Source of the DNA: Bacteroidota bacterium
Lineage (GTDB): Bacteria > Bacteroidota > Bacteroidia > Bacteroidales > JAAUTT01
Reading direction: 5' to 3'
Assembly (NCBI GenBank): GCA_030706405.1
Contig: JAUZOO010000004.1
Coordinates: forward strand, 62,001 to 126,000
Length of the DNA: 64,000 nt
Shown here: positions 10,109 through 45,282 of the stretch, piece after piece
Layout of the letters: each line of letters begins with the position of its first letter
Position numbering within the stretch: position 1 is the first letter of the stretch
Notes under the pieces: generated by a model
Told to the model about the DNA's origin: nothing
Database searches by the model: none
The model's input: only the letters and a program-made list of their open reading frames with translations
Program-made: the position numbers and the translations under genes

Positions 10109-10109
10109 C

Positions 10110-26069: not shown

Positions 26070-27953
26070 ATGAACACCAAACTCATCACCAACCTCTTAT
26101 TTTGCGGATTACTGCTGGGACAAACCATCTCCGCAGCCGACATCTGGGTGGCGCCTAATGGCTCCGACCTTAATGACGGCACCAAGGAACACCCGCTGGC
26201 TTCCGTTGAAATAGCTGTCCGCCATGCCCGTGAACTTCGCCGGTTATCCGACCCTTCCATTGCCGGAGGTATCCACATCATCCTTAAAGGAGGAACTTAT
26301 CAGCCGGTTGATGCCATCCAGCTTCGGCCCGAAGATGCCGGAACAGAAACCAGTCCGACCTGGATTGAAGCTGCTCCCGGAGAGAAACCAATCCTTAGCG
26401 GAGGAATTCAGATTTCGGGATGGAAGAAAGCATCAAACCTTGCCGGATTCCCAAAAGCTGCCCAGGGAAAAATCTGGGTTGCCGATGCTCCCCGTAATGC
26501 CGGAAGGTTAATCGAATTCCGCCAGCTTTGGGTAAACAACAACAAAGCTGTCCGTGCCAGCGAATACAACGAAGGAAAGCTGCAACGCATCCTTTCTGTC
26601 GACAAAAAAAATCAATATTTGTACATTCCCAAACCATCTTTCGGGAGCATCAAGGATGCCGGACAAATGGAGTTTTTCATCCACCAATGGTGGGCCATCG
26701 CTACCTTACGGGTAAAATCGGTTGAAGTAATCGGCGACAGCGCCCGCGTAACCTTCCGTCAGCCCGAAAGCCGCATCGAATTCGAACATCCATGGCCGGC
26801 ACCATTCATCGACGAAAAGAAGAACATGGGAGGAAACTCCGCTTTTTATTTCATGAATGCAGCCCGCTTCCTCGACCGCCCTGGCGAATGGTTTGAAGAC
26901 CTCGCTACCGGAAAAGTTTATTACTGGCCTCGCGAAAACGAGGACTTAACCAAAGCCGAAGTAACCATTCCGTCACTCGAAACCCTGATACAGGTTGAAG
27001 GAACACTCGAAGCCCCGGTTTCCTACATCAATTTTAAAGGCATCACCTTCGAGCATACCACCTGGCTGCGCCCTTCGCTGTCCGGTCATGTACCGCTTCA
27101 GGCCGGGCTGTACTTCTACGAAGCGTATCCGCTGAAAAAACCCGGAACACCCGATAAAGCCGGGCTCGAAAACCAGGGATGGTTAGGCCGCCAGCCTGCC
27201 GCCGTAACGGTAAAAGCTGCCAACAACATCAATTTTGAACGTTGCAACTTCGAACACCTCGGAGCTACCGGACTTGATTATATCTGGGCGACCAGCAACA
27301 ACAACATCGAAGGCTGCGTATTCAGCGACATTGGAGGAACAGGCTTTCATGCAGGATATTATGGTGGTGCCAATTTTGAAGCCCACCTCCCCTACGACCC
27401 TGAAGACTCGCGCGAACTTTGCCAATACCTGCGGTTTGCCAACAACCTGGTAACCAACTGTACCAACGACGACTGGGGCTGTATCGGCATAAGCGTTGGT
27501 TATGCCCGCAACGTCACCATTGAGCATAACGAAGTTTGCGACCTCAACTACATGGGTATCTGTGTTGGCTGGGGCTGGACAAGCACAGTTAACTGCATGC
27601 GCAATAACCGCATCATTGCCAACCATATCCATCATTTTGCCAAACAGATGTACGATGTTAGTGGCATCTATACACTCTCGGCACAACCCAAATCAGAAAT
27701 CAGCAGAAATTATATCCACGATTTGGAGAAGGCACCTTATGCCCACGACCCAAACCACTGGCAATATCTTTATACCGATGAAGGCACTTCGGATATCTGG
27801 GTTCACGACAATTGGACTGAAAAAGACGTCTTCCGCCAGAACTGCAACGGACCCGGTAATAAATGGGAGAACAACGGGCCTACAGTTTCGGATTCAATTA
27901 AAAACGAAGCCGGATTAGAACCTAAATTCCGTGATTTGCTGAAAAACAAATAA
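26070..27953 (+). CDS. Exported right-handed parallel beta-helix protein, probable CAZyme
   Basis: A 627-residue protein with signal peptide MNTKLITNLLFCGLLLGQTI. It opens with the pattern typical of secreted beta-helix enzymes, DIWVAPNGSDLNDGTKEHPL followed by HIILKGGTYQ. A beta-sandwich-like insertion (IQISGWKKASN, RASEYNEGKLQRI) precedes the main helix at about 310-580: INFKGITFEHTTWLRPSLSG, INFERCNFEHLGATGLDYIW, NNIEGCVFSDIGGTGFHAGY, VTIEHNEVCDLNYMGICVGW. The C-terminal block YLYTDEGTSDIWVHDNWTEK is conserved in this kind of protein. Such proteins include lyases and glycoside hydrolases (for example GH120-like or PL-like); the acidic residues in YTDEGTSD could be catalytic, but the class is undecided. 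Its place between an esterase and a GH2 enzyme supports a role in trimming pectic oligosaccharides. Confidence 0.72.
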   Translation: MNTKLITNLLFCGLLLGQTISAADIWVAPNGSDLNDGTKEHPLASVEIAVRHARELRRLSDPSIAGGIHIILKGGTYQPVDAIQLRPEDAGTETSPTWIEAAPGEKPILSGGIQISGWKKASNLAGFPKAAQGKIWVADAPRNAGRLIEFRQLWVNNNKAVRASEYNEGKLQRILSVDKKNQYLYIPKPSFGSIKDAGQMEFFIHQWWAIATLRVKSVEVIGDSARVTFRQPESRIEFEHPWPAPFIDEKKNMGGNSAFYFMNAARFLDRPGEWFEDLATGKVYYWPRENEDLTKAEVTIPSLETLIQVEGTLEAPVSYINFKGITFEHTTWLRPSLSGHVPLQAGLYFYEAYPLKKPGTPDKAGLENQGWLGRQPAAVTVKAANNINFERCNFEHLGATGLDYIWATSNNNIEGCVFSDIGGTGFHAGYYGGANFEAHLPYDPEDSRELCQYLRFANNLVTNCTNDDWGCIGISVGYARNVTIEHNEVCDLNYMGICVGWGWTSTVNCMRNNRIIANHIHHFAKQMYDVSGIYTLSAQPKSEISRNYIHDLEKAPYAHDPNHWQYLYTDEGTSDIWVHDNWTEKDVFRQNCNGPGNKWENNGPTVSDSIKNEAGLEPKFRDLLKNK

Positions 27954-28040: not shown

Positions 28041-30461
28041 ATGAAGCGGATCAACATTCTTTTTATACTTCTTTGCATCACAAGTTTTTCCATTTATGCC
28101 GGGAAGCCAGCCCGCACGATAGACAGTTTCAATCAGGGTTGGAAATTTTTTCTCGGAAACGACTCGCTGGCATGCAATTACAATTATGACGATTCGAAGT
28201 GGAGAACCCTCGACCTGCCTCATGACTGGAGCATAGAAGGACAATTCAGCAAAGAGGCTCCCTGTAAAACCGACGGAGGAGCACTTCCTACCGGCATTGG
28301 CTGGTACCGGAAGTCTTTTACGACTACTTCATTAACCAAGGATAAAAACATTTTTATCGACTTCGACGGGGTTTACCGCAACAGCGAAGTTTGGATAAAC
28401 GGCCATTATCTGGGTTTACGGCCTTATGGCTACAGTTCGTTCCGCTACGATCTGACCCCGTACCTAAAAACCGGCAACGAAAAAAACGTTATCGCAGTAA
28501 AAGTCGATAACTCCAAACAGCCTAACTCCCGCTGGTACACTGGTTCGGGAATTTACCGCAACGTCTGGATGGTGACTACCGGGAAAGTATTCATCAGCCA
28601 CTGGGGCACTTTCGTTACCACTCCCGAAGTCAGCAGCGAAAAGGCATTGGTCAACCTGACCGTTCAACTTCGTGGCAGTCTGACTTCAACCAATCAGATT
28701 TCAATTACAAGCGTTCTATTTAATTCACAAAACAAAAAAGTTGCCCGGCTCCAAACGTCCAATATTGAATTAAAAGATACGTTATCAACCATAAAACAAT
28801 CATTCTCGATTACCAATCCTGACCTTTGGTCAATCGAAACCCCATCGATGTACAAAGCCGTTACCACCGTCTATGTAAACGGCAAGGCCACCGACTCGTA
28901 CGAAACCCCGTTTGGTATCCGCAGTTTTAACTTCGACGCGCTAAAAGGCTTCTTTCTGAACGGGAAACACGTTAAAATACTTGGCGTTTGCCAGCATCAC
29001 GACATGGGTGCATTAGGTGCCGCTGTGAATGTTCGCGCGATGGAACGTCAGCTCGAAATCCTTAAAGAAATGGGAACGAACGCCATCCGTTTTTCGCACA
29101 ACCCACCAACACCCGAAATACTCGACCTTTGCGACCGCATGGGCTTCATCGTAATGGACGAAGCTTTCGATATGTGGAAGAAAAAGAAAAACAAGGAAGA
29201 CTATCACAACGAATTCGACAAATGGCACAAAGCCGACCTCGAAACAATGATTTTGCGCGACCGTAACCATCCGTCCGTTTTTATGTGGAGCATTGGTAAC
29301 GAAATCCGCGAACAGTTCGACAGTACCGGAACCATCATAGTTAAGGAGCTGGCTTCGATTGTTAAAAACCTCGACCCTACCCGTCCGGTTACCTCTGCCC
29401 TCACGGAGAATGAGCCCGCCAAGAACTTTATCACCAAAGCCGGAGCTCTCGATTTGCTTGGCTTCAACTATAAACAGGAAGCGTATGCCGACCTGCCTAA
29501 CCGTTTCCCGGGGCAAAAATTTATAGCCACCGAAACCATGTCGGCACTGGCAACCCGCGGGCATTACGATATGCCATCGGACAGCCTTCGCCTGTGGCCC
29601 AAAGATGGCAAAACGCCTTATGTAACCGGCAATCCCGATTTCACCGTATCTGCTTACGACCACGTGATGGCGTATTGGGGATCAACGCACGAAGCATCAT
29701 GGAACGTTGTTAAAAAACTCGATCACATGGCAGGAATGTTCGTATGGTCGGGCTTCGATTTTATTGGTGAGCCGGTGCCTTATCCCTGGCCTGCCCGTAG
29801 TGCTTACTATGGCGTTATCGACCTTTGCGGTTTGCCAAAAGACGCTTATTACATGTACCAGAGCGAATGGACCAACAAAACAATGTTACATCTTTTCCCG
29901 CACTGGAACTGGACTCCGGGCAAAACCGTCGATGTTTGGGCGTATTATAACAATGCCGACGAAGTAGAACTTTTCCTTAACGGGAAATCGCTGGGAAGCA
30001 AAAAGAAAGAAGGCGACGCACTTCACGTTATGTGGCGCTTAAAATACGAACCCGGAACCATTAAAGCCGTCTCCCGCAAGAATGGTCAGATTGTTCTTTC
30101 CCGCGAAATCAAGACTGCCGGGAAGCCCGCTAAAATCGAGCTTTCAGCCGACCGCTCAAAAATTAAAGCCGATGGAAAAGACCTCTCATTTATCACAGTT
30201 AAAATTCTCGATAAAGACGGCAACATGGTTCCGGATGCCGATAATTTAGTAAATTTCAATATCAAAGGTCAAGGCTATATTGCCGGGGTTGATAACGGGT
30301 ACCAAGCCAGCATGGAACCGTTTAAAGCCAACTTCCGAAAAGCTTATAACGGTATGTGTTTAGCTATCATCCAGTCGAACGGAAAATCAGGAGAAATTAC
30401 GTTTGAAGCCAGTTCAGGAGGATTAGAGAAAACAGAAATTAAAATCAAAGCAATTAAGTGA
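28041..30461 (+). CDS. Exported GH2 glycoside hydrolase, beta-galactosidase-like (806 aa)
   Basis: A GH2 enzyme with signal peptide MKRINILFILLCITSFSIYA. It has the jelly-roll sugar-binding domain (FNQGWKFFLGND, WRTLDLPHDWSIEGQF, GIGWYRKSFTT, FDGVYRNSEVWINGHYLGLR), an immunoglobulin-like domain, then the TIM barrel. The catalytic acid/base is E421 in MWSIGNE and the likely nucleophile is E498 in IATETMSA. Extra C-terminal beta-domains are visible (WTPGKTVDVWAYYNNADEVE and IELSADRSKIKADGKDLSFI, a bacterial Ig-like/DUF4982 arrangement). The PHDW..E motif and compact size put it in the exo-beta-galactosidase-like branch, although beta-glucuronidase or beta-mannosidase activity cannot be excluded. 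Its stop codon lies within a spacer-type repeat (aattaagtgattaggtaatt). It would trim beta-galactosyl side chains. Confidence 0.88.
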   Translation: MKRINILFILLCITSFSIYAGKPARTIDSFNQGWKFFLGNDSLACNYNYDDSKWRTLDLPHDWSIEGQFSKEAPCKTDGGALPTGIGWYRKSFTTTSLTKDKNIFIDFDGVYRNSEVWINGHYLGLRPYGYSSFRYDLTPYLKTGNEKNVIAVKVDNSKQPNSRWYTGSGIYRNVWMVTTGKVFISHWGTFVTTPEVSSEKALVNLTVQLRGSLTSTNQISITSVLFNSQNKKVARLQTSNIELKDTLSTIKQSFSITNPDLWSIETPSMYKAVTTVYVNGKATDSYETPFGIRSFNFDALKGFFLNGKHVKILGVCQHHDMGALGAAVNVRAMERQLEILKEMGTNAIRFSHNPPTPEILDLCDRMGFIVMDEAFDMWKKKKNKEDYHNEFDKWHKADLETMILRDRNHPSVFMWSIGNEIREQFDSTGTIIVKELASIVKNLDPTRPVTSALTENEPAKNFITKAGALDLLGFNYKQEAYADLPNRFPGQKFIATETMSALATRGHYDMPSDSLRLWPKDGKTPYVTGNPDFTVSAYDHVMAYWGSTHEASWNVVKKLDHMAGMFVWSGFDFIGEPVPYPWPARSAYYGVIDLCGLPKDAYYMYQSEWTNKTMLHLFPHWNWTPGKTVDVWAYYNNADEVELFLNGKSLGSKKKEGDALHVMWRLKYEPGTIKAVSRKNGQIVLSREIKTAGKPAKIELSADRSKIKADGKDLSFITVKILDKDGNMVPDADNLVNFNIKGQGYIAGVDNGYQASMEPFKANFRKAYNGMCLAIIQSNGKSGEITFEASSGGLEKTEIKIKAIK

Positions 30462-30512: not shown

Positions 30513-31397
30513 ATGAGCAACTTATTACAAAAAATTAAATCCGGCAAAATCCTTGTTTCAGACGGGGCTTGGGGAACATTTCTTCAGAAAAAGGGATTGC
30601 AACCCGGGGAATGTCCGGAATTATGGAACATCGAACATTCCCCGGAAGTTCTTGACATTGCCCAAAGCTACGTGGATGCCGGAGCAGACATGATTGAGAC
30701 GAACTCTTTCGGAGCCAACCGTTTTAAACTAGAGCATTTCGGGCTGTCCGACCGGGCTTTTGAACTTAATAAAGCTGCTGCCGAAATATCGCGCAAAGCC
30801 GCCGGTCCCGACCGTTTTGTAATCGGCTCCGTTGGTCCTACCGGTAAAATACTGATGATGGGCGATGTAACCGAAGAAGAGCTTTACGAAGCTTTCAAGG
30901 AACAGGTTCAGGGACTCGAAGCCGGAGGTGCCGATGCGATAGTTATTGAAACTATGTCCGACCTTGACGAAGCACGCATCGCCATTCGTGCTGCACGCGA
31001 AAATACCCAGTGCGAAGTAATGTGCACCATGACGTTCGCAGCCACTCCTTCCGGAGAATATTTCACCATGATGGGCGTTTCTCCTTCGCAAATGGTACAC
31101 GAGCTTTTGGATGCCGGGGCCACCATCATTGGTTCTAACTGCGGCAACGGAATCGCCGGTATGCTCCATGTAGTCAAGGAAATCCGAGGCGTCAATCCGG
31201 ACATTCCGGTATTTATACAGGCCAATGCCGGAGCACCTATTTACCAGAATGGTGAAACGACATTTCCGGAAACTCCTGTTGAAATGGGAGCTTTTGTGTC
31301 TCAACTAATAGAGGCTGGAGCCAACATCATTGGCGGGTGCTGCGGAACAACGCCGGAACATATCCGCGAGATTGCCAAAATTGTTCATAGTCATTAA
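30513..31397 (+). CDS. Homocysteine S-methyltransferase (MetH module-1-like)
   Basis: A 294-residue cytoplasmic protein with no signal peptide. It is a zinc-dependent homocysteine methyltransferase barrel like the first module of cobalamin-dependent methionine synthase: ILVSDGAWGTFLQKKGLQPG, DMIETNSFGANRFKLEHFG, VIGSVGPTGKILMMGD, and the zinc ligands C210 in GSNCGNG and C276/C277 in GGCCGTTP. Its length equals the module alone; no folate- or cobalamin-binding module is attached. The next gene is a free-standing MetH activation domain, and a UroD-like methyltransferase follows two genes later. A methyl donor other than folate, delivered by a corrinoid protein, is therefore likely. The alternative is a plain SAM- or S-methylmethionine-dependent homocysteine methyltransferase, but the neighbours argue for corrinoid chemistry. 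Confidence 0.9.
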   Translation: MSNLLQKIKSGKILVSDGAWGTFLQKKGLQPGECPELWNIEHSPEVLDIAQSYVDAGADMIETNSFGANRFKLEHFGLSDRAFELNKAAAEISRKAAGPDRFVIGSVGPTGKILMMGDVTEEELYEAFKEQVQGLEAGGADAIVIETMSDLDEARIAIRAARENTQCEVMCTMTFAATPSGEYFTMMGVSPSQMVHELLDAGATIIGSNCGNGIAGMLHVVKEIRGVNPDIPVFIQANAGAPIYQNGETTFPETPVEMGAFVSQLIEAGANIIGGCCGTTPEHIREIAKIVHSH

Positions 31398-31403
31398 TAC
31401 AGT

Positions 31404-31470
31404 AAACGCAAAGTCGCGAAGCATTAAATCAATAACAACTTATTCTTTGCCTCTTTCCGCCTTTGCGTTT
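31404..31470. repeat. cgcaaag-type inverted repeat, copy 3
   Basis: AAACGCAAAGTCGCGAAGC (31404-31422) pairs with CTTTGCCTCTTTCCGCCTTT... (31445-31470), ending in gcgttt. It is the third member of the family at 3253 and 27959. It covers the spacer before the MetH-activation-domain gene and runs into the upstream in-frame extension of that gene, which argues against the longer start. Confidence 0.7.
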
Positions 31471-31507
31471 AGAATTATCTTTTTATCACGAAAACTCATC
31501 TAGCACC

Positions 31508-32215
31508 ATGGAGCTAAACAGGTTCACAACCTTAGACATAAAACCTGAAAACGTTATCATACGGGAGTCCGACATCCTCCGGTTGCTGGGTTATCCGACA
31601 ACCGATGCCGACCCGTTCATCCGGCACACGGTACAGTTGTGCATTGAGCAAAGTATCGGTTTGCTCATGCCTAAAGCCGGCTATATCCTTCTGGAAATTT
31701 CTAAAAAAAAGACCAAAGAAGGAATTGTACGCTTCGATGGCACAACCTTAGAAGTTGGCAAACTCATTGCTGCCCAGATGAAGAAAGCCGAATATGCTGC
31801 CATCTTCACCGTAACCATTGGCAAAGAGGTTGAAACACTTTCGGAAGATGCTTTTCGCAAGAAAGACATGCTCGAAGGTTATATCTTTAACCTGATAGGC
31901 TCCGAAGCTGCCGAGTCAGTAGCCGAAATCGTCCATCAGCATGTACGCAAGCTGTCCGAAGACAAAGGTCTGCATATCACCAACCGGTTCAGCCCCGGCT
32001 ATTGCCACTGGGACACCAAAGAGCAATTCAAAATCTTTAGTTTCTTTCCCGATGATTTTGATGACGTTACCCTTACCGAATCAGCTTTAATGAATCCGGT
32101 AAAATCCGTCAGTGCCATCGTAGGCATTGGTAAAGAAGCCGAATTTAAAGATTATACCTGCAATCAATGTGGTCTGGACAATTGTCTGTACCGCAGTTTA
32201 AAAGAAAATAGATAG
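31508..32215 (+). CDS. Stand-alone vitamin-B12-dependent methionine synthase activation-domain protein
   Basis: A 235-residue cytoplasmic protein matching the C-terminal SAM-binding activation module of MetH. The ATG at 31508 is preferred; the frame is open from 31463, but that part is spacer repeat. The family motif is NRFSPGYCHWDTKEQ (159-173), in which R160 and the GY pair belong to the RxxxGY SAM-binding signature. The C-terminus has CNQCGLDNCLYR, a Cys-rich tail also known from related free-standing activation proteins. In MetH this module re-methylates cob(II)alamin using SAM and a reductant; as a separate protein it would reactivate a corrinoid methyl carrier. It lies between the homocysteine methyltransferase and a GH31 gene, 14 bp before the latter, so it is embedded in the sugar operon. 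Confidence 0.85.
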   Translation: MELNRFTTLDIKPENVIIRESDILRLLGYPTTDADPFIRHTVQLCIEQSIGLLMPKAGYILLEISKKKTKEGIVRFDGTTLEVGKLIAAQMKKAEYAAIFTVTIGKEVETLSEDAFRKKDMLEGYIFNLIGSEAAESVAEIVHQHVRKLSEDKGLHITNRFSPGYCHWDTKEQFKIFSFFPDDFDDVTLTESALMNPVKSVSAIVGIGKEAEFKDYTCNQCGLDNCLYRSLKENR

Positions 32216-32229
32216 CCCCACCCATATTT

Positions 32230-34479
32230 ATGAAACAGACCAATTACCACTTATTTGACTTTTTAGATTTCGAAAAAGATCTGAGCGGCAACGAAGCCGT
32301 TTGGAAAGCTGGCAAACCTACCAACATTGAGACACAAAACGGCGACGTGGTTATTACCGTACCGTTTCAAAAATTAGTTACCTCAAACGAAATCAGCCCC
32401 GACAAACCGGTAGCCCCGAAAGAATTCCAACTACGGTTACGGGCTTATAACGATAAGATACTCCGCGTTTCGGCTGGGTTTGGAGTGGCCGACATGCCCG
32501 ACTCGCCCATGCTTGAATTTGGCGACAACCTAAAATTTACCCCGCTCAAATTCGAAAAGCACGAAACCGAATGGCTGGTTAAAGACCACAACGGAATGCT
32601 TAAAGCCCGTTTCGACCTCAGCGAGCCTGCCATCGATTTTTGGAGCGACCTCATCCCCGCCCCCGAAGACACGCTTAATGCAACCTTCTATCCCGATGGA
32701 AAACGGGAAATCAAAATAAGCGCTTACGACCAGTTTACCCCTGCCCGCCACGATGCTATGGCACTGGCCTATGTTGAAAAAGACGGAGTAAACGACCGCG
32801 TAACCATCTCGTTCCACGCCCAGCCCGACGAAGTCTTTGTCGGCTCTGGCGAACGATTCTCAAAATTAGACCTCTCCGGCCATACGTTTCAGCTCCACAA
32901 CCAGGACGGTCAGGGAGTGAACAACCGCCGTACCTACAAAAACATCCCGTTCTACGTTTCCAGCCGCATGTACGGATTATTCCTGCATACTGCTGCATAC
33001 ACCAAATTCTCGTTTGCCGACCATTCAACCCGTTCGGTACAGCTGCTCACCGAGCAACCGCTTATCGACGTTTTCCTGATGGGTGGCGACAGCGTGGAAG
33101 AAATCATCCGCTACTATCGTCAATTGACCGGTTTCCCGAGCCTTCCCCCGCTGTGGAGCTTCGGAACCTGGATGAGCCGCATGACCTATTTCTCGGCCGA
33201 CGAAGTAAACGAAATCTGCGACCGCCTTCGGAAAGAAGATTTCCCGTGCGACGTAATCCACCTCGACACCGGTTGGTTCCGAACCGACTGGCTTTGCGAA
33301 TGGAAATTCAACCCCGAACGTTTCCCTGATCCTAAAAAATTTATTGGCGACCTGCGTAAAAACGGGTTCAAGGTCAGCCTCTGGCAGATGCCGTACATCG
33401 CGGCCAACGCCGAACAGCACGACGAAGCCAAAGCCAACCAATACATGGGTCCGCTCAACGAAGCCATGCTACAGGGAGGCTCGAACTTCAGCGCACTCGA
33501 CTATGCCGGAACCATCGACTTTACCTACCCCAAAGCCGTTGAATGGTACAAAGGTTTATTAAAGAACCTGCTGGACATGGGCGTAGTATGCATCAAAACC
33601 GATTTTGGTGAAGAAATCCACATGGATGCGACATACCATGCCATGGAACCAAAATTTCTGCGCAATATTTATGCATTACTTTATCAAAAAGCAGCTTACG
33701 AAATAACCAAAGAAGTTACCGGAGACGGAATTGTTTGGGCACGTGCCGGATGGGCCGGATGTCAGCGCTACCCGTTGCACTGGGGAGGCGACTCAGCCTG
33801 CTCATGGGACGGTCTGGCCGGTTCACTCAAAGGCGGCCTCCACATCGGATTGTCAGGCTTCGGGTTCTGGAGCCACGATGTGCCCGGATTTCACGGCGTG
33901 CCTAACTTCATGAACTCCGTCATTCCCGACGACCTCTACGTTCGTTGGACCCAGTTTGGCGTATTCTCGTCGCACATCCGCTACCACGGAACCTCCAAAC
34001 GCGAGCCTTACGAATACCCGAACATCGCCGACACCGTACGCCGCTGGTGGAAAATACGTTACGCCCTCATCCCCTACAGCATCGAACAAAGCAAGAAAGT
34101 AACCGAAAGCGGCTACCCAATGCTTCGTGCTCTGATATTTCATCATGCCAATGACAAAGTTTGCTGGCACATCCACGACCAGTATTACTTTGGCGACGAC
34201 TTCCTCGTTGCACCAGTGATGAACTCAGAAAACAAACGCGACGTTTATCTGCCCGAAGGTCAATGGGTAAACCTCTTCAGCGGCAAGACCTACGAAGGCG
34301 GCCAATGGCTCAAAGACTTTGAATGTCCTCTCGAAGAGATGCCGGTATGGGTAAAATACGGAGCTACCGTTCCTTTCTACCCAGAAAATGTGCAAAGCAC
34401 AGACGACATTGATTTCACGAAAGTTACAAGCATTAAATTCGACAACACTTTCAAAGGTTTATTGGGTATTGGGTTTTAG
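32230..34479 (+). CDS. Cytoplasmic GH31 glycoside hydrolase, alpha-xylosidase/alpha-glucosidase type
   Basis: A 749-residue GH31 enzyme without a signal peptide, so it acts on imported oligosaccharides. The N-terminal sandwich carries VFVGSGERFSKLDLSGHTFQ and the barrel FGTWMSRMTYFSADEVNEIC, DVIHLDTGWFRTDW and FKVSLWQMPYIAANAE. The nucleophile is D458 in VVCIKTDFGEE and the acid/base is D521 in LHWGGDSACSWDG. The KTDFGE signature groups it with YicI-type alpha-xylosidases, although the true aglycone is unknown and substrates such as methylated alpha-glycosides deserve thought given the methyl-transfer neighbours. The last residues (LLGIGF) and the stop codon are encoded by an inverted repeat that continues into the spacer, so the natural C-terminus may have been altered by the element. 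Confidence 0.88.
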   Translation: MKQTNYHLFDFLDFEKDLSGNEAVWKAGKPTNIETQNGDVVITVPFQKLVTSNEISPDKPVAPKEFQLRLRAYNDKILRVSAGFGVADMPDSPMLEFGDNLKFTPLKFEKHETEWLVKDHNGMLKARFDLSEPAIDFWSDLIPAPEDTLNATFYPDGKREIKISAYDQFTPARHDAMALAYVEKDGVNDRVTISFHAQPDEVFVGSGERFSKLDLSGHTFQLHNQDGQGVNNRRTYKNIPFYVSSRMYGLFLHTAAYTKFSFADHSTRSVQLLTEQPLIDVFLMGGDSVEEIIRYYRQLTGFPSLPPLWSFGTWMSRMTYFSADEVNEICDRLRKEDFPCDVIHLDTGWFRTDWLCEWKFNPERFPDPKKFIGDLRKNGFKVSLWQMPYIAANAEQHDEAKANQYMGPLNEAMLQGGSNFSALDYAGTIDFTYPKAVEWYKGLLKNLLDMGVVCIKTDFGEEIHMDATYHAMEPKFLRNIYALLYQKAAYEITKEVTGDGIVWARAGWAGCQRYPLHWGGDSACSWDGLAGSLKGGLHIGLSGFGFWSHDVPGFHGVPNFMNSVIPDDLYVRWTQFGVFSSHIRYHGTSKREPYEYPNIADTVRRWWKIRYALIPYSIEQSKKVTESGYPMLRALIFHHANDKVCWHIHDQYYFGDDFLVAPVMNSENKRDVYLPEGQWVNLFSGKTYEGGQWLKDFECPLEEMPVWVKYGATVPFYPENVQSTDDIDFTKVTSIKFDNTFKGLLGIGF

Positions 34480-34528
34480 GTATTAGCCTAAAATCCATTC
34501 CAAAACCTAACACCAATGACCTAACACC
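34461..34528. repeat. Inverted repeat overlapping the end of the GH31 gene
   Basis: ATTGGGTATTGGGTTTTAGG (34461-34480) with tattag, and CCAAAACCTAACACCAATGA (34500-34519) with cctaacacc, form imperfect inverted arms. The left arm encodes the last five residues and stop codon of the GH31 enzyme. Confidence 0.65.
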
Positions 34529-34537
34529 TTCTTTAAC

Positions 34538-35602
34538 ATGAATACCTGGAAAACCAATTTAGAAGAATCAAAAAAGAATTACCTCAACTGGTGGAATAAC
34601 AATGGTTTGGTTATTAGTATGTGGGAACATCTGGAAAAAGACGGTGCTCCGCATGAAAACGTTTTCAAACCCGCACCAGCCAAAGACCTCGACCAATTAT
34701 GGTTCGACCTGGCCTGGCGTTCCGACAACCTGCACTACCAATTGTCGCGAAGCTCATTTAAAGCCGATATCCTTCCCGTTGCCAATACCCATCTGGGGCC
34801 AGGCTCACTGGCAGGTATTCTTGGAGCTGAATTGAGCGGCGGAGAAGATACCATCTGGATAAACCATCGCGCCGACTTTGGCGATGACATCATTTTTGAC
34901 GAAAACAACAAATGGTGGAAACTTCATCTTGACTTAGTAAAAACCTGTCGTGCAAAATCCGAAGGCCGCTACTACGTGGGCATGCCCGACCTCATCGAAG
35001 GCCTCGATACACTTGCCGGACTTAAAGGCACTGAAGCCGTGATGTTCGACATGATGATTGACCCCGAAAAAGTGGAAATGCAGCTTCAAAAGATAAACGA
35101 TGCCTGGTTTAAAGCTTTCGACGCGATTTACGATGTCATTAACGTTGATGGCGAAATGGCTTTCTGCTACTTCTCCATCTGGGGACCGGGTAAAGTCGCC
35201 AAATTACAGTCGGACATTTCCATCATGTTTTCGGAAGATGATTATCGCCGGTTTGTTCAGCCGTTTATCCGCGAACAATGCCAGAAAATCGATTACACGC
35301 TGTACCACCTCGACGGAGTGGATGCCATCCGCCACCTCGATGCTATCCTTGAAATTAAGGAACTGAACGCCATTCAATGGACGCCTGGAGTTGGCCAACC
35401 TCAGGGTGGAGATCCGAAATGGTATGATTTGTACAAAAAAATCCTGGCAGCCGGGAAATCCATCATGCCTTGCTGGGTTGAAATTGACGAGCTGAAACCG
35501 CTTTTGGACAATGTTGGAAATCAAGGGCTAAACCTCCTCATGCATTTCAAAACCGAAAAGGATATTGAGGAAGCTTTGAAAATTGTGGAATCTTATCGGT
35601 AA
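34538..35602 (+). CDS. UroD-like corrinoid methyltransferase family protein
   Basis: A 354-residue cytoplasmic protein of the uroporphyrinogen-decarboxylase superfamily, the one that includes MtaA/MtbA-type methylcobamide methyltransferases. Visible family features are GSLAGILGAELSGGEDTIWI, YYVGMPDLIEGLDTLAGLKG, the C-terminal half with LYHLDGVDAIRHLDAILEIK, then ELNAIQWTPGVGQPQGGDPK and a final LNLLMHFKTEKDIEEAL. The His/Asp in YHLDG and the Cys in IMPCWVEI are possible metal or substrate contacts. It lacks the residues and context of a heme enzyme: no hem genes are near, while a homocysteine methyltransferase and a MetH activation domain are two and three genes upstream. A role in moving a methyl group from a methylated substrate to a corrinoid protein, or onward, is inferred. 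Confidence 0.8.
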   Translation: MNTWKTNLEESKKNYLNWWNNNGLVISMWEHLEKDGAPHENVFKPAPAKDLDQLWFDLAWRSDNLHYQLSRSSFKADILPVANTHLGPGSLAGILGAELSGGEDTIWINHRADFGDDIIFDENNKWWKLHLDLVKTCRAKSEGRYYVGMPDLIEGLDTLAGLKGTEAVMFDMMIDPEKVEMQLQKINDAWFKAFDAIYDVINVDGEMAFCYFSIWGPGKVAKLQSDISIMFSEDDYRRFVQPFIREQCQKIDYTLYHLDGVDAIRHLDAILEIKELNAIQWTPGVGQPQGGDPKWYDLYKKILAAGKSIMPCWVEIDELKPLLDNVGNQGLNLLMHFKTEKDIEEALKIVESYR

Positions 35603-35628: not shown

Positions 35629-36678
35629 ATGTTACGACTAGGAATATTAGGATTAGGAGAAGGACGCAGCACCATGTCCGCAGCGTTGAACAGCAGCAAA
35701 TGGGAACTTAAAACCATTTGCGACATGAATGAGGATTTATGCAGGAAACGTGCCAAGGAATTTGACTTTCATCATTATACTACGTCGTACGATGATATGC
35801 TCAACGATCCGGAGATTGACGTCATCGGCATTTATACGCCTGACCATCTTCATGCCCGGCATATCAAAATGGCGCTGGAACATGGGAAGCACGTAGTTTG
35901 CACCAAACCGCTGATGGACGACCTGTCGGAGACCGAAGAGCTTCTTGCGCTTAGCGAACGTTCAGGCAAAAAGGTTTTTGTTGGCCAAAGTTCCCGTTTT
36001 TTCGAGCCCATGAAACGTCAACGGGCAGATTTCGAAGCAGGACAGATTGGCGACCTGGTAACCATCGAAGCGTATTACCATGCCGATCACCGCTGGTTTC
36101 TGGGCAAAGGCTGGTCGCTCGAAAAATCGTTCAAGTGGCTGTACGGAGGCTTAAGTCATCCGGTCGACCTTATCCGCTGGTACCTCCCGGATATTGAAGA
36201 GGTTATGGGCTACGGAATGCTTAGTCCGAATGGCATTAAAGGAGGCTTGAAAAACCACGACACCATGCACTTCATTTTTAAGGCGAAAGACGGCAGGGTT
36301 GCCCGGGTTAGCGGAGTATATACCTGTCCCGTACAACCCGTAACCCGCGACAGTGAGATGAGCTGCATCCTCCGCGGTACCGAAGGCGCCAGTCAGGCCG
36401 ACTACATGGACCTGCGCTATGCCATCACCAACCGCAACGGAGAAGAACAAATCATTACCTGGGAACACAAGTTAAAACACTATTTCCGGTTTGAAGGGAA
36501 AAGCCATCATGCCGGTGAATACCAGAATTATTACGAATACTTTGCCGATTGTCTCGAAAAAGACATTACGGCCTACCCCGACCTTACAGAAGGTATCGGA
36601 ACTATTGCCCTCTTAAAAGCGATGGACAAATCGCTCGAAAGTGGGAAACCGGTAAGAATATCTGAAATTATTAAGTAA
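35629..36678 (+). CDS. Gfo/Idh/MocA-family NAD(P)-dependent oxidoreductase
   Basis: A 349-residue cytoplasmic dehydrogenase. The Rossmann fold begins at residue 2 (LRLGILGLGEG), and the family motif EHGKHVVCTKPLMDDLSE carries the conserved Lys-Pro. The C-terminal alpha/beta domain has YYHADHRWFLGKGW, then WLYGGLSHPVDLIRWYLPD, whose GG..H.D motif supplies the catalytic His region. Members oxidise or epimerise sugars and inositols; some also open glycosidic bonds by oxidation. No export signal is present. It sits between the UroD-like methyltransferase and a sodium symporter, 26 bp after the former, which fits a cytoplasmic pathway for an unusual imported sugar, perhaps a methylated one. Confidence 0.88.
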   Translation: MLRLGILGLGEGRSTMSAALNSSKWELKTICDMNEDLCRKRAKEFDFHHYTTSYDDMLNDPEIDVIGIYTPDHLHARHIKMALEHGKHVVCTKPLMDDLSETEELLALSERSGKKVFVGQSSRFFEPMKRQRADFEAGQIGDLVTIEAYYHADHRWFLGKGWSLEKSFKWLYGGLSHPVDLIRWYLPDIEEVMGYGMLSPNGIKGGLKNHDTMHFIFKAKDGRVARVSGVYTCPVQPVTRDSEMSCILRGTEGASQADYMDLRYAITNRNGEEQIITWEHKLKHYFRFEGKSHHAGEYQNYYEYFADCLEKDITAYPDLTEGIGTIALLKAMDKSLESGKPVRISEIIK

Positions 36679-36742: not shown

Positions 36743-38329
36743 ATGCAGAACATCTACAGTTTTCTAACACCAGTGGACTTCATCATTGTCGCTGCCTATC
36801 TGCTCATCCTAATTGCCATAGGATATTGGGTGAGTTTTGTAAAAGAAAAGAAGAAGGACGAAAACCTCTTCCTTGCCCAGCATTCATTAGGCTGGTTCAG
36901 TATCGGCCTCAACATGTGGGGCACCAACGTTGGTCCTTCGATGCTTTTGGCCTCTGCCAGTATTGGATATTCCACCGGTATTGTAGCCGGCAACTTTGCC
37001 TGGTATGCCTTTGTCTTCATCCTGCTGCTTGCCGTAATCTTTGCGCCCCGTTACCTGGGAGCCAAAGTCTCGACACTTCCCGAATACATGGGTAAACGTT
37101 TCGGTTCCCGTACGCGCAATATTCTGGCATGGTACACGCTTATTACTATTCTCATTTCATGGTTGTCGCTCGGGCTGTTTGCCGGCGGAATTCTTGTAAA
37201 ACAATTGCTTGGCATTCCCATGTGGGCATCGGTAATCCTTATGGTGACGCTGGCAACTGTACTTACCGCTGCCGGAGGGCTTAAAGCCATCGCTTATACC
37301 AGCGTTTTTCAGATGTCGTTGCTCATTATCGTATCGCTTACCCTCACGTTTATAGGACTATATAAAGTAGGCGGAATTTCAGCCCTTTACCATAACACCC
37401 CGGGGAGCTACTGGAACATGTTTCTACCCTTGCACGACAAAAATTATCCGTGGCTGGCCATCATACTCGGCTATCCGGTGATGGGCGTCTGGTTTTGGTG
37501 TACGGAACAAAGCATGGTACAATCGGTGCTTGGTGCCAAAAACCTTAAACAAGGACAGTTGGGCGCCAACTTCATCGGATGGCTTAAAATCCTCGATGTT
37601 CCGCTGTTCATCCTTCCGGGCGTACTTTGTTTCATACTTTTTCCACACCTGTCCAATCCCGATGAAGCTTACCTGGTTATGGTAACGCACCTCTTCCCGC
37701 AAGGAATGAAAGGGTTGATAATCGTGGTTCTTCTGGCTGCCCTTATCGGGAACATCGGCTCGTCGCTTAACTCGGTGAGTACCGTTTACACGATGGACAT
37801 CTACATCAAACGATATAAACCCAACGCGACCAATACCGAAATCATTAAACTGGGACGTATCATCACCATTTTTAGTGCAATCATCTCGGTGATGGTGGCG
37901 CTTGCTATCGATAGCATCAAAGGATTGAACCTGTTCGACGTCTTCCAGTCGGTACTTGGGTTTCTGGCCCCGTCCATGTCGGTAGTTTTCCTTTTTGGTG
38001 TGCTTTGGAAAAAGACAACCTCACGCGCCATCAACCTGACACTTACCTTAGGTACCTTATTCTGCCTTATTGTTGGAATCCTGTACCTCTGGGTTTTCCC
38101 GGCTAAACAATATCCGCAATGGCCTCACTTCCTGATGCTGTCGTTCTATCTGTTTGTGATTTTATCAATCGGAGCTTTTATAATAAGCTATTTCGACAAA
38201 AAAGGACAAGCCATCGTTACCGAACAGGAAATCCCGGTAATAGCCAAACCCGACAGAAAAGTATGGATGGCCTGGGGGGCTTTAATTGTGGTGATGATTG
38301 CCCTGTATATATTCTTTAACGGACACTAA
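36743..38329 (+). CDS. Sodium:solute symporter (SSS family), probable sugar transporter
   Basis: A 528-residue inner-membrane protein with about 13-14 hydrophobic segments and no cleavable signal. SSS features are FLTPVDFIIVAAYLLILIAI at the N-terminus, NMWGTNVGPSMLLASASIGY (Na+-site region of the first inverted repeat), KVSTLPEYMGKRFGSRTRN, TAAGGLKAIAYTSVFQMSLL, FWCTEQSMVQSVLGAKNLKQ and AALIGNIGSSLNSVSTVYTM. This is the SGLT-like branch that imports monosaccharides or uronic acids with sodium. It would carry the product of the periplasmic enzymes to the cytoplasmic dehydrogenase and aldolase. It is the last gene before the second GH2 unit. Confidence 0.9.
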   Translation: MQNIYSFLTPVDFIIVAAYLLILIAIGYWVSFVKEKKKDENLFLAQHSLGWFSIGLNMWGTNVGPSMLLASASIGYSTGIVAGNFAWYAFVFILLLAVIFAPRYLGAKVSTLPEYMGKRFGSRTRNILAWYTLITILISWLSLGLFAGGILVKQLLGIPMWASVILMVTLATVLTAAGGLKAIAYTSVFQMSLLIIVSLTLTFIGLYKVGGISALYHNTPGSYWNMFLPLHDKNYPWLAIILGYPVMGVWFWCTEQSMVQSVLGAKNLKQGQLGANFIGWLKILDVPLFILPGVLCFILFPHLSNPDEAYLVMVTHLFPQGMKGLIIVVLLAALIGNIGSSLNSVSTVYTMDIYIKRYKPNATNTEIIKLGRIITIFSAIISVMVALAIDSIKGLNLFDVFQSVLGFLAPSMSVVFLFGVLWKKTTSRAINLTLTLGTLFCLIVGILYLWVFPAKQYPQWPHFLMLSFYLFVILSIGAFIISYFDKKGQAIVTEQEIPVIAKPDRKVWMAWGALIVVMIALYIFFNGH

Positions 38330-38339: not shown

Positions 38340-41779
<3,440 letters not shown>

Positions 41780-41781: not shown

Positions 41782-44700
41782 ATGAAGAACTTAGAACCAA
41801 GAACCATGAGCCTAGAGCCTAGATGTAAGAGCCAACGGCTAAAAGCCAAAAGCCAAAAGCTTATCATTCTATTTATTAGTCTATCGGGGCTTTTTAACAT
41901 AAATACTTTCGCACAGGCAGACAAGCTCAAAGACATCTTTCTGTCGCCGCCCGAATCGGCTAAACCGTGGGTATTCTGGTATTGGATGCATGCAGCAGTA
42001 ACCCGCAAAGGCATTACCGCCGACCTCGAAGCCTTGAAACAAAACGGAATCGGGGGCGTTTATCTCGTCCCGATCAACGGAGTTGATACCCCCCCATTGA
42101 TAACACCTGCGGCAGAACAGCTATCTCCGCAATGGTGGACGATGATTCGCTTTGCTTTTGACGAAGCCGACCGACTTGGTATTAAAATAGCCATGCACGC
42201 CAGCGACGGTTTTGCCACTGCCGGCGGCCCCTGGATCACCCCTGAGTTATCGATGCAAAAAGTGGTATGGACAGAAACGCGCGTTTCGGGCAAACAACAT
42301 TTTAACGGAGAAATAACCAAGCCCGAATCATACCAGGGATATTACCACGACATTGCCGTGCTGGCCTTTCCTACAATAGATAAGCCCGGACAATCAACGC
42401 GCGACATCACCCCTAAAGTAACCACAAGCACAGGTGCTAATGGCTCATTTCTACCCATGGGCAACAAAAAAGACACCTTCAGCAGCGACGATCCCTGCTG
42501 GATTCAATACGAATTCAACAAGCCTTTCACCTGTCGCTCCCTGACCATCATTACCGGAGGAACAAACTATCAGTCGCACCGTTTCAAAATTGAAACCAGC
42601 AACGACGGCAAAAACTTTCAACCCGCCGGGCAGCTCAATCCTCCACGCCACGGATGGTATGATTTTCAAGACAATGCTACGTATGCCATAAAATCGGTAA
42701 CAGCCCGATATTTCCGCTTCAGCTATAACAAAGAAGGAACCGAGCCTGCTGCCGAAGACCTCGAAAATGCCAAGTGGAAACCAGCCCTCAAGGTGAAAGG
42801 CATCGTCCTTTCGTCAGCTCCACATATTCATCAGTACGAAGGCAAAAACGGGCAGGTTTGGCGCGTAGCCACACATTCCACTTCGGAGATGATTCCCGAC
42901 TCGCTTTGCATTCCTCTGAATAAAGTCATCAACATTACCGACAAGCTCGATGCCAATGGCAAATTAAACTGGGATGTTCCTGCCGGAAACTGGACCATTC
43001 TTCGCATTGGCCACACTTCTACCGGACGCATGAACGGCACTGCCGGAGCTGCCAAAGGACTGGAATGTGACAAGCTAAACCCGGAAGCTGTTAAATTTCA
43101 ATACAGCAAATGGTTTGGCGAGATTACCCAACGAATGGGGAAAGATTTAACTTCAAGGGTTCTAAAATATCTCCATGTTGACAGCTGGGAATGCGGAAGC
43201 CAGAACTGGTCGCCCACGTTCCGTGAAGAATTTAAAAAACGCCGAGGCTACGATTTGTTGCCCTATCTACCGGCCATGGCAGGAATACCAGTGGCCAACG
43301 CCAACACATCCGAGCGATTTCTCGCCGATATCCGCCAGACTGTTGCCGACCTTGTTGCCGACAATTTTTACGGCACCATCACCGGACTTACCCATACCAA
43401 CGGGTATCAATTTACCGGAGAATCGGTGGCCCCGGTAATGTTGAGCGACGGTATGCTTCATTACAAATACGTGGATATTCCCATGGGCGAGTTCTGGTAT
43501 AAAAGTCCAACGCACGACAAACCTTCCGACATTCTCGATGCGACTTCCGGCGGGCACATCTATGGAAGAAACATTATTCAGGCCGAAGCCTTTACTACCG
43601 TCCGCATGGACTGGAGCGAAAACCCGGCAGTACTGAAAACTCTTCAGGACCTAAATTATTCTTTAGGCATCAACCGCTTTGTATTTCACGTATCCACGCT
43701 TAATCCGTGGCTCGACCGCAAGCCTGGCATGACGTTAAACGGTGTAGGACTTTATTTTCAACGCGACCAGACCTGGTGGAAACCCGCCAAAGCCTGGATG
43801 GATTACACACAACGCTGCCAAGCCCTGCTGCAACAAGGCGTTCCGGTTACCGACGTTGCCGTATTCACCGGCGAAGAAACGCCTCGCCGTGCATTTACCC
43901 CCGATCGTTTTGTGTCCGCACTCCCCGGTATCTTCGGCGAAGATCGGGTTAAAAGCGAAGCCAATCGTCTTGCCAACAAAGGAGTGCCAACCCGCAGTGT
44001 TTCGCTGGGAGTTACCGCATCCGACAACATGTATGAACCCCAAAAATGGGCAGACCCGTTGCGCGGATATGCTTTCGACTCTTTTAATCAAGACGCTCTT
44101 CTCCGTCTGGCAACCGTTAAAAAAAACGGCCGTATCGAACTTCCCGGAGGCGCCAGCTACGGCGTTCTCGTAATCCCGGGCAAGCACCCGATGCAGCCCG
44201 AGAGCAAATCCATGTCGCCCGAAGTTGCCCAAAAACTGCTTCAACTGGCTAAAGATGGCGCAACCATCATTGTCAACGACCGGCCGGAAACTTCACCGAG
44301 CCTTTCCGGAGGATTAAAAAATGACAAGAATATGCTGAAATCCATTAAAGAGTTGTGGGGTGGCGAAACTGTAAATAATCCCGGGATTGCAGACGAATAC
44401 ACCGTTGGTAAAGGCAAAGTAATCCATGGGCCATTTAAAGCGGCTTCATTCGACGGCCTCAACGTACCCCGCGATTTCATTGCTTTGGACGAAAATAATA
44501 TCCCGAGCAAAGACATTGCCTGGGCACACCGTACCGACGAAGGTTTTGATATATATTTCGTATCCAACCAACAAGCTCAACCCCGTACCATTAATCTTTC
44601 GCTACGCGTTTCAGGCCGTGTACCCGAAATCTGGAACCCGGTAACCGGCGAAACCATGACTGCAAATCAATGGAAAATAGCATCAGGCCGCACCGAGCTT

Positions 44701-45282
44701 CCTGTAAAATTGGAAGCCAATGGTTCCTCATTTATCGTACTTCGACAATCAACCCAAACAACCGATGAAAATAAAGGCAAGAACTGGGAAGAACTAGTAT
44801 CAGAAGAAAAACTCAACGGCTCATGGCAGGTAACCTTCGATCCCAAATTCGGAGGTCCGGAGAAACCCGTCGTTTTTGAACAGCTTGACGATTGGAGTAA
44901 AAACGCAGATTCAACCATTCGTTATTATTCAGGAACCGCAGTGTACTCTAAATCCTTCACTTGGAACACATCAAACATGCACGGAAAAGTATGTCTAAAT
45001 CTGGGGCGTGTCGCCAATATTGCTTCTGTAAAAGTAAATGGCATCGACTGCGGAGTTGCCTGGACTTCCCCGTTCAAGGTCGACATCTCCAAAGCGCTGA
45101 AACCGGGAGAAAACCAACTCTCCATCGAAGTTACCAACACCTGGGCCAACCGACTGATTGGCGACCAAAGATTATCGGAGAAGCAACGCATCACATGGAC
45201 AACTGCTCCTTTCCGTCTTGATGGCAAACCATTGCTCGAAGCCGGATTGCTTGGACCTGTTGAAGTGACGATTGACAATTAA
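41782..45282 (+). CDS. Exported alpha-L-rhamnosidase-like enzyme, GH106
   Basis: A 1,166-residue enzyme. The start must be at 41782 or the in-frame ATG at 41806, because no start codon exists between that and the hydrophobic core LIILFISLSGLFNINTFAQ. Both starts lie inside spacer-type words (cttagaaccaagaacc, agccaaaagccaaaagc), giving an unusual n-region MKNLEPRTMSLEPRCKSQRL. The catalytic part has IFLSPPESAKPWVFWYWMHA, GITADLEALKQNGIGGVYLV and HASDGFATAGGPWITPE, as in GH106. E470 in LHVDSWECGS and E602 in NIIQAEAFTT, 132 residues apart, are candidate acid and base. A jelly-roll insert and a C-terminal galactose-binding-like domain (LNLGRVANIASVKVNGIDCG) follow. The final TIDN and stop codon overlap another repeat (gacgattgacaatt). 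It is the third rhamnosidase of the locus. Confidence 0.9.
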   Translation: MKNLEPRTMSLEPRCKSQRLKAKSQKLIILFISLSGLFNINTFAQADKLKDIFLSPPESAKPWVFWYWMHAAVTRKGITADLEALKQNGIGGVYLVPINGVDTPPLITPAAEQLSPQWWTMIRFAFDEADRLGIKIAMHASDGFATAGGPWITPELSMQKVVWTETRVSGKQHFNGEITKPESYQGYYHDIAVLAFPTIDKPGQSTRDITPKVTTSTGANGSFLPMGNKKDTFSSDDPCWIQYEFNKPFTCRSLTIITGGTNYQSHRFKIETSNDGKNFQPAGQLNPPRHGWYDFQDNATYAIKSVTARYFRFSYNKEGTEPAAEDLENAKWKPALKVKGIVLSSAPHIHQYEGKNGQVWRVATHSTSEMIPDSLCIPLNKVINITDKLDANGKLNWDVPAGNWTILRIGHTSTGRMNGTAGAAKGLECDKLNPEAVKFQYSKWFGEITQRMGKDLTSRVLKYLHVDSWECGSQNWSPTFREEFKKRRGYDLLPYLPAMAGIPVANANTSERFLADIRQTVADLVADNFYGTITGLTHTNGYQFTGESVAPVMLSDGMLHYKYVDIPMGEFWYKSPTHDKPSDILDATSGGHIYGRNIIQAEAFTTVRMDWSENPAVLKTLQDLNYSLGINRFVFHVSTLNPWLDRKPGMTLNGVGLYFQRDQTWWKPAKAWMDYTQRCQALLQQGVPVTDVAVFTGEETPRRAFTPDRFVSALPGIFGEDRVKSEANRLANKGVPTRSVSLGVTASDNMYEPQKWADPLRGYAFDSFNQDALLRLATVKKNGRIELPGGASYGVLVIPGKHPMQPESKSMSPEVAQKLLQLAKDGATIIVNDRPETSPSLSGGLKNDKNMLKSIKELWGGETVNNPGIADEYTVGKGKVIHGPFKAASFDGLNVPRDFIALDENNIPSKDIAWAHRTDEGFDIYFVSNQQAQPRTINLSLRVSGRVPEIWNPVTGETMTANQWKIASGRTELPVKLEANGSSFIVLRQSTQTTDENKGKNWEELVSEEKLNGSWQVTFDPKFGGPEKPVVFEQLDDWSKNADSTIRYYSGTAVYSKSFTWNTSNMHGKVCLNLGRVANIASVKVNGIDCGVAWTSPFKVDISKALKPGENQLSIEVTNTWANRLIGDQRLSEKQRITWTTAPFRLDGKPLLEAGLLGPVEVTIDN
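41787..41860. repeat. Low-complexity spacer repeat forming the 5' end of the GH106 gene
   Basis: gaacttagaaccaagaacc (41787-41805), then gagcctagagcct, then three agccaaa words ending AGCCAAAAGCCAAAAGC (41844-41860). These are the near-tandem word type found in spacers here (cttggaacctagaacttgg at 38426 is the same family), but they are in frame and contain both possible start codons of the gene. Confidence 0.75.

Follow-up and report, generated by a model that had tools for sequence, protein, structure and literature searches.

The rhamnogalacturonan II (RG-II) degradome of Bacteroides thetaiotaomicron has glycoside hydrolases (GH) of families GH138, GH140, GH106 and GH78 in addition to the GH139 enzyme BT0984 and the GH141 enzyme BT_1002, and we are aware of no description of methyl-sugar demethylation in it. 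RG-II, a conserved component of plant primary walls, carries two methyl ethers, 2-O-methyl-xylose and 2-O-methyl-fucose. Both methyl-ether sugars are freed when RG-II is digested, and we found no described fate for either. Homologues of BT0984 and BT_1002 are present in the Bacteroidota genome considered here (G000; 4.93 Mb, 21 contigs, 99.7% complete), of which a stretch of 64,000 nucleotides (contig C16:62001-126000, hereafter the window) carries methyl-transfer genes embedded in a polysaccharide utilization locus (PUL). We propose that the window genes, together with a second locus on contig C15, probably carry out a cobalamin-dependent demethylation of imported RG-II methyl-ether sugars. 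Below, C-numbers denote contigs of G000, G-numbers genomes and L-numbers loci of relatives.

The activator of corrinoid O-demethylases of the OdmB/VdmB/MtvB type is an ATP-dependent iron-sulfur protein. As outlined in the available part of the source, these acetogen systems and the Cdm chloromethane system resemble the present one in combining a UroD-superfamily first methyltransferase, a corrinoid protein, a second methyltransferase and a separate activator, but they act on methoxylated aromatics or haloalkanes and pass the methyl group to tetrahydrofolate (PMC13222342). The system described here differs in its context of sugar import and pectin hydrolysis, in an acceptor that would be thiol-like, and in an activator of the MetH type, a domain predicted to use S-adenosylmethionine (SAM). 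The Type 1 mlp clusters of Kountz and Balskus likewise join several UroD-superfamily methyltransferases to one corrinoid protein with no folate methyltransferase in the cluster, but their sites are His-Cys-Cys, their activators are of the Ram/RACE kind and their neighbors relate to sulfur or selenium, and glycoside hydrolases are not mentioned in the available part of that paper (PMC10418091). The activation domain of the window shares the fold of TM0269 from the Thermotoga maritima TM0268/TM0269 methionine synthase, but its family has four invariant Cys and G000 additionally has a full metH. Folate-independent (core) methionine synthases are relatives of MetE, whereas the protein here is of the S-methyl_trans family. 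They resemble the candidate role of the latter in methylating homocysteine without folate, probably from corrinoid proteins, according to the available text (PMC7857596). P450 demethylation of 6-O-methyl-galactose from porphyran is also a demethylation of a methyl-ether sugar by polysaccharide-degrading bacteria, in that case marine; as far as the accessible text goes it is oxidative and releases formaldehyde (PMC10033563), whereas the system here would need no oxygen and would retain the methyl group.

The chemistry class is known, whereas the substrate class and the mix of components are new, and the system itself is real and conserved. None of the matches listed in a search of open-licence papers concerned corrinoid demethylation of sugars or RG-II in connection with such genes; the remark in the initial annotation that no PUL-borne sugar demethylation of this composition has been described thus holds among those matches, which are weak evidence of novelty. 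If the proposal is true, these would be the first corrinoid enzymes known to us to act on sugar methyl ethers, pectin degradation would be tied directly to cobalamin chemistry and one-carbon supply, candidates would be named for two enzyme activities that have no assigned protein, and a role would be found for a family whose window member Pfam and NCBIfam miss. Strains in which the question could be tested include Proteiniphilum sp. X52, Draconibacterium aestuarii Z1-6 and the Dysgonomonas strains sp. 511 and sp. 520.

The window cluster begins with a 294-aa homocysteine S-methyltransferase domain protein (30513-31397; Pfam S-methyl_trans, E 1e-72), followed by a free-standing MetH-type activation domain of 250 aa with a TTG start (31463-32215; Pfam Met_synt_B12, E 2.7e-13), a YicI-like GH31 enzyme (32230-34479; Pfam GH31, 3.9e-84) and UroD354, a 354-aa protein with a predicted UroD fold (34538-35602). 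A Gfo/Idh/MocA dehydrogenase, an accessory sugar enzyme (35629-36678; Pfam GFO_IDH_MocA, 1.7e-22), and an SSF sodium:solute symporter (36743-38329; Pfam SSF, 2.5e-49) lie downstream, all on the plus strand. Open reading frame coordinates and Pfam thus confirm the layout given in the initial annotation, namely three methyl-transfer genes on one strand, interleaved with GH31 and followed by a dehydrogenase and a symporter. Intergenic gaps measure 14-96 bases on this single strand from a GH2 gene at 28041 through another at 38426.

UroD354, the candidate first methyltransferase moving the methyl group from methyl-sugar to corrinoid, gave zero Pfam or NCBIfam matches at 1e-3. An AlphaFold model built from a 36-row alignment is confident (mean pLDDT 95.1, pTM 0.92), and Foldseek placed the Methanosarcina methyltransferase 4ay8/4ay7, which we take to be MtaA, at the top of the PDB matches (E 1.6e-8/1.8e-8; TM-score ~0.6, 12% identity), with uroporphyrinogen decarboxylases also among the best folds. 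The UroD-like call originally made for this gene is accordingly borne out by fold and not by Pfam or NCBIfam; it is fold alone that places UroD354 in the superfamily, and sequence profiles do not reach it. H257 and D259, which form a His-x-Asp motif in place of His-x-Cys, are invariant in the 36 rows. In an alignment confined to rows of 300-600 aa, with L033, L070 and L121 omitted, His-x-Asp occurs in the window protein and in 34/34 relatives and no Cys occupies the third ligand place, a column made uncertain by the strong divergence of the subfamily. The related UroD343 and UroD344 of the C15 locus have His-x-Cys...Cys (20/20 rows) and His-x-Cys...His (15/16 rows), respectively, and UroD358 (3/3) and UroD375 (2/3) carry the His-Cys-Cys site of sulfur/selenium methyltransferases. 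S-methyltransferases of the UroD superfamily bind zinc through His-Cys-Cys, and in O-methyltransferases one or both Cys are swapped for carboxylates or non-ligands (PMC10418091). By this rule, and judging from the motifs, UroD354 looks like an oxygen-side enzyme and UroD343 like a thiol-side enzyme. The same motifs bear on the possibility that the cluster works on methyl-thiols and methyl-selenols, which we consider extremely unlikely: His-Cys-Cys sites do occur in UroD343, UroD358 and UroD375 and a single corrinoid protein is joined by several UroDs, as in mlp clusters (PMC10418091), but neither UroD354 nor UroD344 has such a site and the neighbors are glycoside hydrolases and sugar symporters. 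We also observed a 539-aa UroD variant adjoining the corrinoid gene (L111:8561-10180, L113, L116, L120) in which the zinc His aligns with Phe, giving F-x-C...C in 4/4 rows.

The initial annotation had placed the missing corrinoid protein outside the window and suggested a genome search for it and for a canonical metH; both were found. A B12-binding_2 search of G000 returned three matches, of which one, at C15:486353-487018, is a corrinoid protein of 221 aa that combines a B12-binding_2 with a B12-binding domain (Pfam 8.1e-17 and 6.1e-22) and retains D112, H114 and D115 in 18/18 rows. Another is a full-length MetH of 1224 aa with its own activation domain on contig C21, followed by a gene that resembles metF by eye. 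The third, at C16:274.8k, was set aside as a corrinoid protein, being a MerR-type regulator by eye from its translation. Beside the corrinoid gene is that of UroD343, an MtaA-like UroD (C15:485279-486310; PDB 4ay7, methylcobalamin:coenzyme M methyltransferase, E 3.5e-17). The other C15 genes encode two DUF5703 proteins, a 908-aa protein, two further UroDs (358 and 344 aa), an AraC regulator and a RhaT symporter. The 908-aa protein is a GH138 homologue (BPa0997, E 0) encoded 5 kb from the corrinoid gene, and both DUF5703 proteins are of GH139 type; the first matches PDB 9hyq (E 1.5e-263) and its gene lies 178 bases from the corrinoid gene. The DNA immediately 5' of the listed start of this GH139-type gene reads as an export signal by eye. 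9HYQ, a GH139 structure, and 9HMB come from a paper in whose available text GH139 is the only family known for alpha-1,2-linked 2-O-methyl-fucose (PMC12282258).

The metH on C21 also decides against an ordinary, constitutive split methionine synthase as the main role of the window genes, a role that we reject and to which we give almost no credence. A homocysteine domain and an activation domain are indeed the two ends of MetH, and TM0269 (1j6r) is an activation protein for the separate Thermotoga methionine synthase, but a complete metH elsewhere means that the window genes are not the split methionine synthase of the cell. Moreover, they are embedded among GH genes, and a folate-binding domain is not among the Pfam matches of the three window proteins, in agreement with the initial description of pieces of a methyl-transfer chain lacking the folate module of MetH.

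The homocysteine methyltransferase is the candidate second methyltransferase from methyl-corrinoid to homocysteine, and the zinc ligands first proposed for it, Cys210, Cys276 and Cys277, are retained in 3/3 aligned rows. The activation domain, a candidate SAM-dependent reactivase of the corrinoid protein, was likewise correctly recognized from the start: its Met_synt_B12 match spans positions 116-265 of the 273 in that model, a profile built from 16 rows finds PDB 1j6r with E 2.6e-17, and its AlphaFold model (pLDDT 84.6) matches 1j6r, the TM0269 activation domain, with a target TM-score of 0.87. Cys 181, 233, 236 and 241 are invariant in 16/16 rows; the aligned stretch of 1j6r has Gly at the first of these places and stops short of the other three. 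It is possible, going by this conservation, that the four Cys form an iron-sulfur or metal site. A decayed second locus of this sort was also noticed at G000:C18 ~119,700-120,600 (L017, L036), where fragments of an activation domain and of a UroD343-like protein and, by eye, an AraC-like piece lie beside glycoside-hydrolase-like genes.

A scan of named genomes with UroD354 yielded 37 loci, mostly from Bacteroidales metagenome-assembled genomes and isolates (Paludibacter, Dysgonomonas, Proteiniphilum, Draconibacterium); two are from Opitutales, and a small number of distant loci come from other phyla. Locus counts use 31 of 38 loci, omitting L033 (same genome as L050), L070 (near copy of L060), L071 (43-44% identity) and the distant L073-L076. 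The recurring co-directional order is [rhaM-domain lipoprotein]-GH31-UroD354-SSF-(UroD344-RhaT)-corrinoid protein-UroD343 (or homocysteine methyltransferase)-activation domain, often surrounded by GH138, GH140, GH141 or GH78 genes. GH31 is directly upstream of UroD354 in 29/30 relatives under a 500-base rule (the exception, L068, has it 596 bases up), and SSF is directly downstream in 26/27, the exception being L047, where it comes after UroD344 and RhaT. This gene neighborhood is not chance, and the random spread outside sugar loci that the initial annotation had named as a counter-sign was not seen when neighborhoods were compared. Among the 23 relatives for which 7 kb or more could be inspected downstream, 17 encode the corrinoid protein there in the same locus; UroD343 is present in 17/31 loci, and UroD344 is accompanied by RhaT in 8/11 loci that bear it (the distant L075 included). 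The Gfo/Idh/MocA dehydrogenase is found in a minority of relatives (5/38 loci). L047 and L053 have the homocysteine methyltransferase, with UroD343 not seen within the locus DNA examined. The homocysteine methyltransferase adjoins the corrinoid gene or is one gene away from it in L053, L111, L112, L113 and L116, and in the last four the corrinoid gene is on another contig than UroD354. The order in L111 (Marinilabiliaceae) is GH138-SASA-UroD344-RhaT-corrinoid protein-539-aa UroD-homocysteine methyltransferase-GTPase-activation domain, so that the homocysteine methyltransferase and activation domain of the window resemble its tail and C15 its head.

Some relatives fit the other source of methyl groups considered in the initial annotation, methanol from pectin methyl esters with MtaB as the first methyltransferase. 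MtaB (L047:6250-7626, E 1.1e-159) is encoded directly upstream of GH31-UroD354 in L047, an arrangement in which one corrinoid protein may serve both a methanol and a methyl-sugar branch, and MtaB genes stand beside homologous corrinoid genes in L114, L118, L119, L122 and L125, with UroD343 adjoining or between in L118 and L122. For G000 itself we consider this explanation very unlikely. UroD354 and UroD344 are not MtaB, and there is no MtaB among the Pfam-scanned window and C15 proteins, although a genome-wide MtaB search of G000 was not made. In a corrinoid-protein tree from which rows <180 aa and L033, L070 and L031 were left out, the MtaB-linked proteins of L114, L118 and L122 group in a separate clade (100/99) that excludes the G000 protein, itself on a long open branch; those of L119 and L125 are placed elsewhere. 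The methanol-type clusters L118:1520-8220 and L122:8842-15358 comprise genes for a corrinoid protein, UroD343, MtaB, a CobW-like GTPase, a 494-495-aa protein and an activation domain; the 494-495-aa protein has a ferredoxin-like Cys motif at its start and is activator-like by eye.

Genome-wide co-occurrence points in the same direction as gene order. The 35 UroD354 entries represent 34 distinct genomes, since L033 and L050 are one genome, and the corrinoid protein (E<=1e-40) is present in 34/35 entries or 33/34 distinct genomes, G000 included, with five of the matches weaker or partial (E 6e-41 to 2e-47). By comparison, only two of 390 class genomes have it at E<=1e-30, and these are the same two that bear UroD354. 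The activation domain (E<=1e-10) was found in 26/34 UroD354 genomes, two of these being fragments, versus 2/395 class genomes (E<=1e-8), again the two with UroD354 and the corrinoid protein. GH139 (E<=1e-80) is present in 29/34 distinct UroD354 genomes versus 13/390 class genomes, and of the 28 distinct genomes having both GH139 and the corrinoid gene, 10 have the two on the same contig at a distance of 0.2-31 kb, judging from the coordinates. The class samples comprised 390 genomes for the corrinoid protein, UroD354 and GH139 and 395 for the activation domain, their overlap being certain only for the genomes listed; the 8/34 genomes without an activation domain and the 5/35 entries without GH139 were counted as misses. 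Kinship inflates these counts, but the same pairing recurs in different gene orders, which argues for function.

RG-II-type glycosidases are predicted by homology across the two loci, GH140 and GH141 in the window and GH138 and GH139 on C15. The window GH141, a BT_1002 homologue with a signal peptide by eye (26070-27953, plus strand; PDB 5mqp, E 1.6e-220; Pfam GH141_M, 3e-64), belongs to what we take to be the RG-II chain A alpha-L-fucosidase family, and an apiosidase-like enzyme (7625-9025, plus strand; Pfam PF13204, 5.4e-114) is presumably GH140, an RG-II marker. A BT_1020-like beta-propeller protein (10086-11987, plus strand; Pfam PF24067, 1e-121) we also take to be an RG-II marker. GH138 is encoded beside the cluster in 9/31 relative loci and GH141 in 7/31. 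The presence of RG-II enzymes beside the methyl-transfer genes supports the part of the initial annotation that read them as O-demethylating an imported methyl sugar; the substrate, the direction and homocysteine as acceptor we infer. As a whole that interpretation is supported.

The linkage that B. thetaiotaomicron leaves uncut is, we assume, 2-O-methyl-xylosyl-alpha-1,3-fucose. According to the available text, the bacterium cleaves all RG-II linkages but one (PMC12282258). The window GH31 is a candidate cytoplasmic alpha-xylosidase that could release 2-O-methyl-xylose: it matches the NCBIfam alpha-xylosidase model with E 3.1e-140 (469 bits versus a cut-off of 606), its best PDB match is 5f7c (E 0) with YicI second, and a signal peptide is absent by eye, so that it would act on an imported sugar. 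The SSF symporter is the candidate importer of the methylated sugar or oligosaccharide. Because GH31 lies upstream of UroD354 and UroD344 is accompanied by RhaT, 2-O-methyl-xylose may be assigned to UroD354 and 2-O-methyl-fucose to UroD344. The same chemistry could instead serve another substrate (4-O-methyl-glucuronate, methyl-rhamnoses or a methyl glycoside) in what is merely a general pectin or hemicellulose locus. SSF and GH31 leave the substrate unfixed, GH31 being close to a protein titled alpha-glucosidase; a rhaM-domain lipoprotein upstream of GH31 in 17/31 relative loci hints at a 6-deoxyhexose; and Opitutales L042 and L043 show GH31-UroD354 with no GH138, GH140 or GH141 in the locus DNA examined and no GH139 found in their genomes. 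We nevertheless regard this alternative as unlikely, given the GH139 gene beside the corrinoid gene in G000, the frequency of this 2-O-methyl-fucose family (so described in the accessible part of PMC12282258) among UroD354 genomes, and the recurrence of GH138 and GH141 next to the cluster. The rhamnose mutarotase (rhaM) domain is at the lipoprotein C-terminus (L060:7069-7764 and 16 other loci), usually directly upstream of GH31, and was not seen in the window operon.

Demethylation of RG-II sugars, the reading we favor, would proceed as follows. RG-II side chains would be dismantled outside the cytoplasm by the GH141, GH78, GH106, GH2 and GH140 enzymes of the window and by GH138 and GH139 of C15. 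The SSF symporter would import a 2-O-methyl-xylose-containing sugar, likely 2-O-methyl-xylosyl-fucose, and the cytoplasmic GH31 would split it. UroD354, with its presumably oxygen-preferring His-x-Asp metal site, would then transfer the methyl group of 2-O-methyl-xylose to Co(I) on the C15 corrinoid protein, and UroD344 and RhaT of C15 would do the same for 2-O-methyl-fucose freed by GH139. A second methyltransferase, the homocysteine methyltransferase and/or UroD343, would hand the methyl group on to a thiol; with homocysteine, the likeliest one, the product would be methionine. On cobalt oxidation, the free-standing activation domain would restore the corrinoid by SAM-dependent reductive methylation, the electron source, like the substrates, being inferred. 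The gene identities, fold, motifs, conserved gene order, genome-wide co-occurrence and RG-II context behind this scheme were obtained by computation. In a more specific form, which we put forward tentatively, the system would be an oxygen-independent finishing of RG-II methyl sugars: GH31 would cut 2-O-methyl-xylose-alpha-1,3-fucose, UroD354 and UroD344 would be two new O-demethylase families feeding one corrinoid protein, the methyl groups would go to methionine, and a four-Cys SAM activation domain, possibly iron-sulfur, would take the place of an ATP-driven RACE protein.

Several observations weigh against this proposal. UroD354 matches its best PDB folds only moderately (TM-score 0.6), none of its relatives has a known substrate, and among PDB sequences the 36-row profile matches only CdmB, a relative of OdmB and MtvB, at a weak E 1.1, OdmB, VdmB and MtvB not having been compared directly. 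GH31 has no diagnostic value: 5f7c, whose title names an alpha-glucosidase, reaches 1202 bits, equal to the copy in L121 (1202 bits), and GH31 was therefore dropped as a specific marker. GH138, GH140 or GH141 is present in only 14/31 relative loci (12/20 loci of at least 17 kb) within the locus DNA examined. The methyl genes of the window and the corrinoid gene are on separate contigs. G000 carries both acceptor-side candidates, the homocysteine methyltransferase of the window and UroD343 of C15, and the former is present in just 2/31 relative loci. The activation domain was not found at E<=1e-10 in 8/34 genomes, where another activator may serve; L072 has a weak match (3e-10) in its locus. 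In a family-level search of five genomes, three of four genus mates (G001, G002, G004) carry the corrinoid protein (61-64% identity), each beside UroD343, yet G002 lacks UroD354 and the versions in G001 and G004 share only 28% identity with it, so that the corrinoid-UroD343 module must serve other first methyltransferases too. Finally, 11/13 GH139-bearing class genomes are without the corrinoid protein, indicating that the system is an option and not a need for RG-II users.

In loci L037, L038 and L039, from the genus of the window, pairs of corrinoid protein and UroD343 genes lie near a LacI-like regulator (by eye) with no UroD354 nearby, and in genus mates G001 and G004 the activation domain is on other contigs.

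The remaining glycoside hydrolases of the PUL are also on the plus strand. A SusD gene is located at 12-1202 of the window, and its SusC partner would sit to the left of the window. Two GH78-type alpha-L-rhamnosidases follow, one at 13561-16398 (Pfam Bac_rhamnosid6H, 1.3e-93) and one fused to a BNR/sialidase-like domain at 19699-23520 (Pfam 4.5e-113; BNR_2, 7.3e-91). A GH2 enzyme (28041-30461; Pfam GH2 domains) is encoded 51 bases upstream of the methyl genes, and beyond the symporter are a GH2 beta-galactosidase-like enzyme (38426-41779; Pfam Bgal_small_N, 2.5e-64) and a GH106 alpha-L-rhamnosidase (41782-45282; Pfam PF17132, 2.9e-183). The right end of the window encodes very large repeat proteins at 51435-54785 and 55831-63936 (2701 aa) with short repeats of the 'NIFxGGNADG' type, which by eye are unrelated to the PUL.

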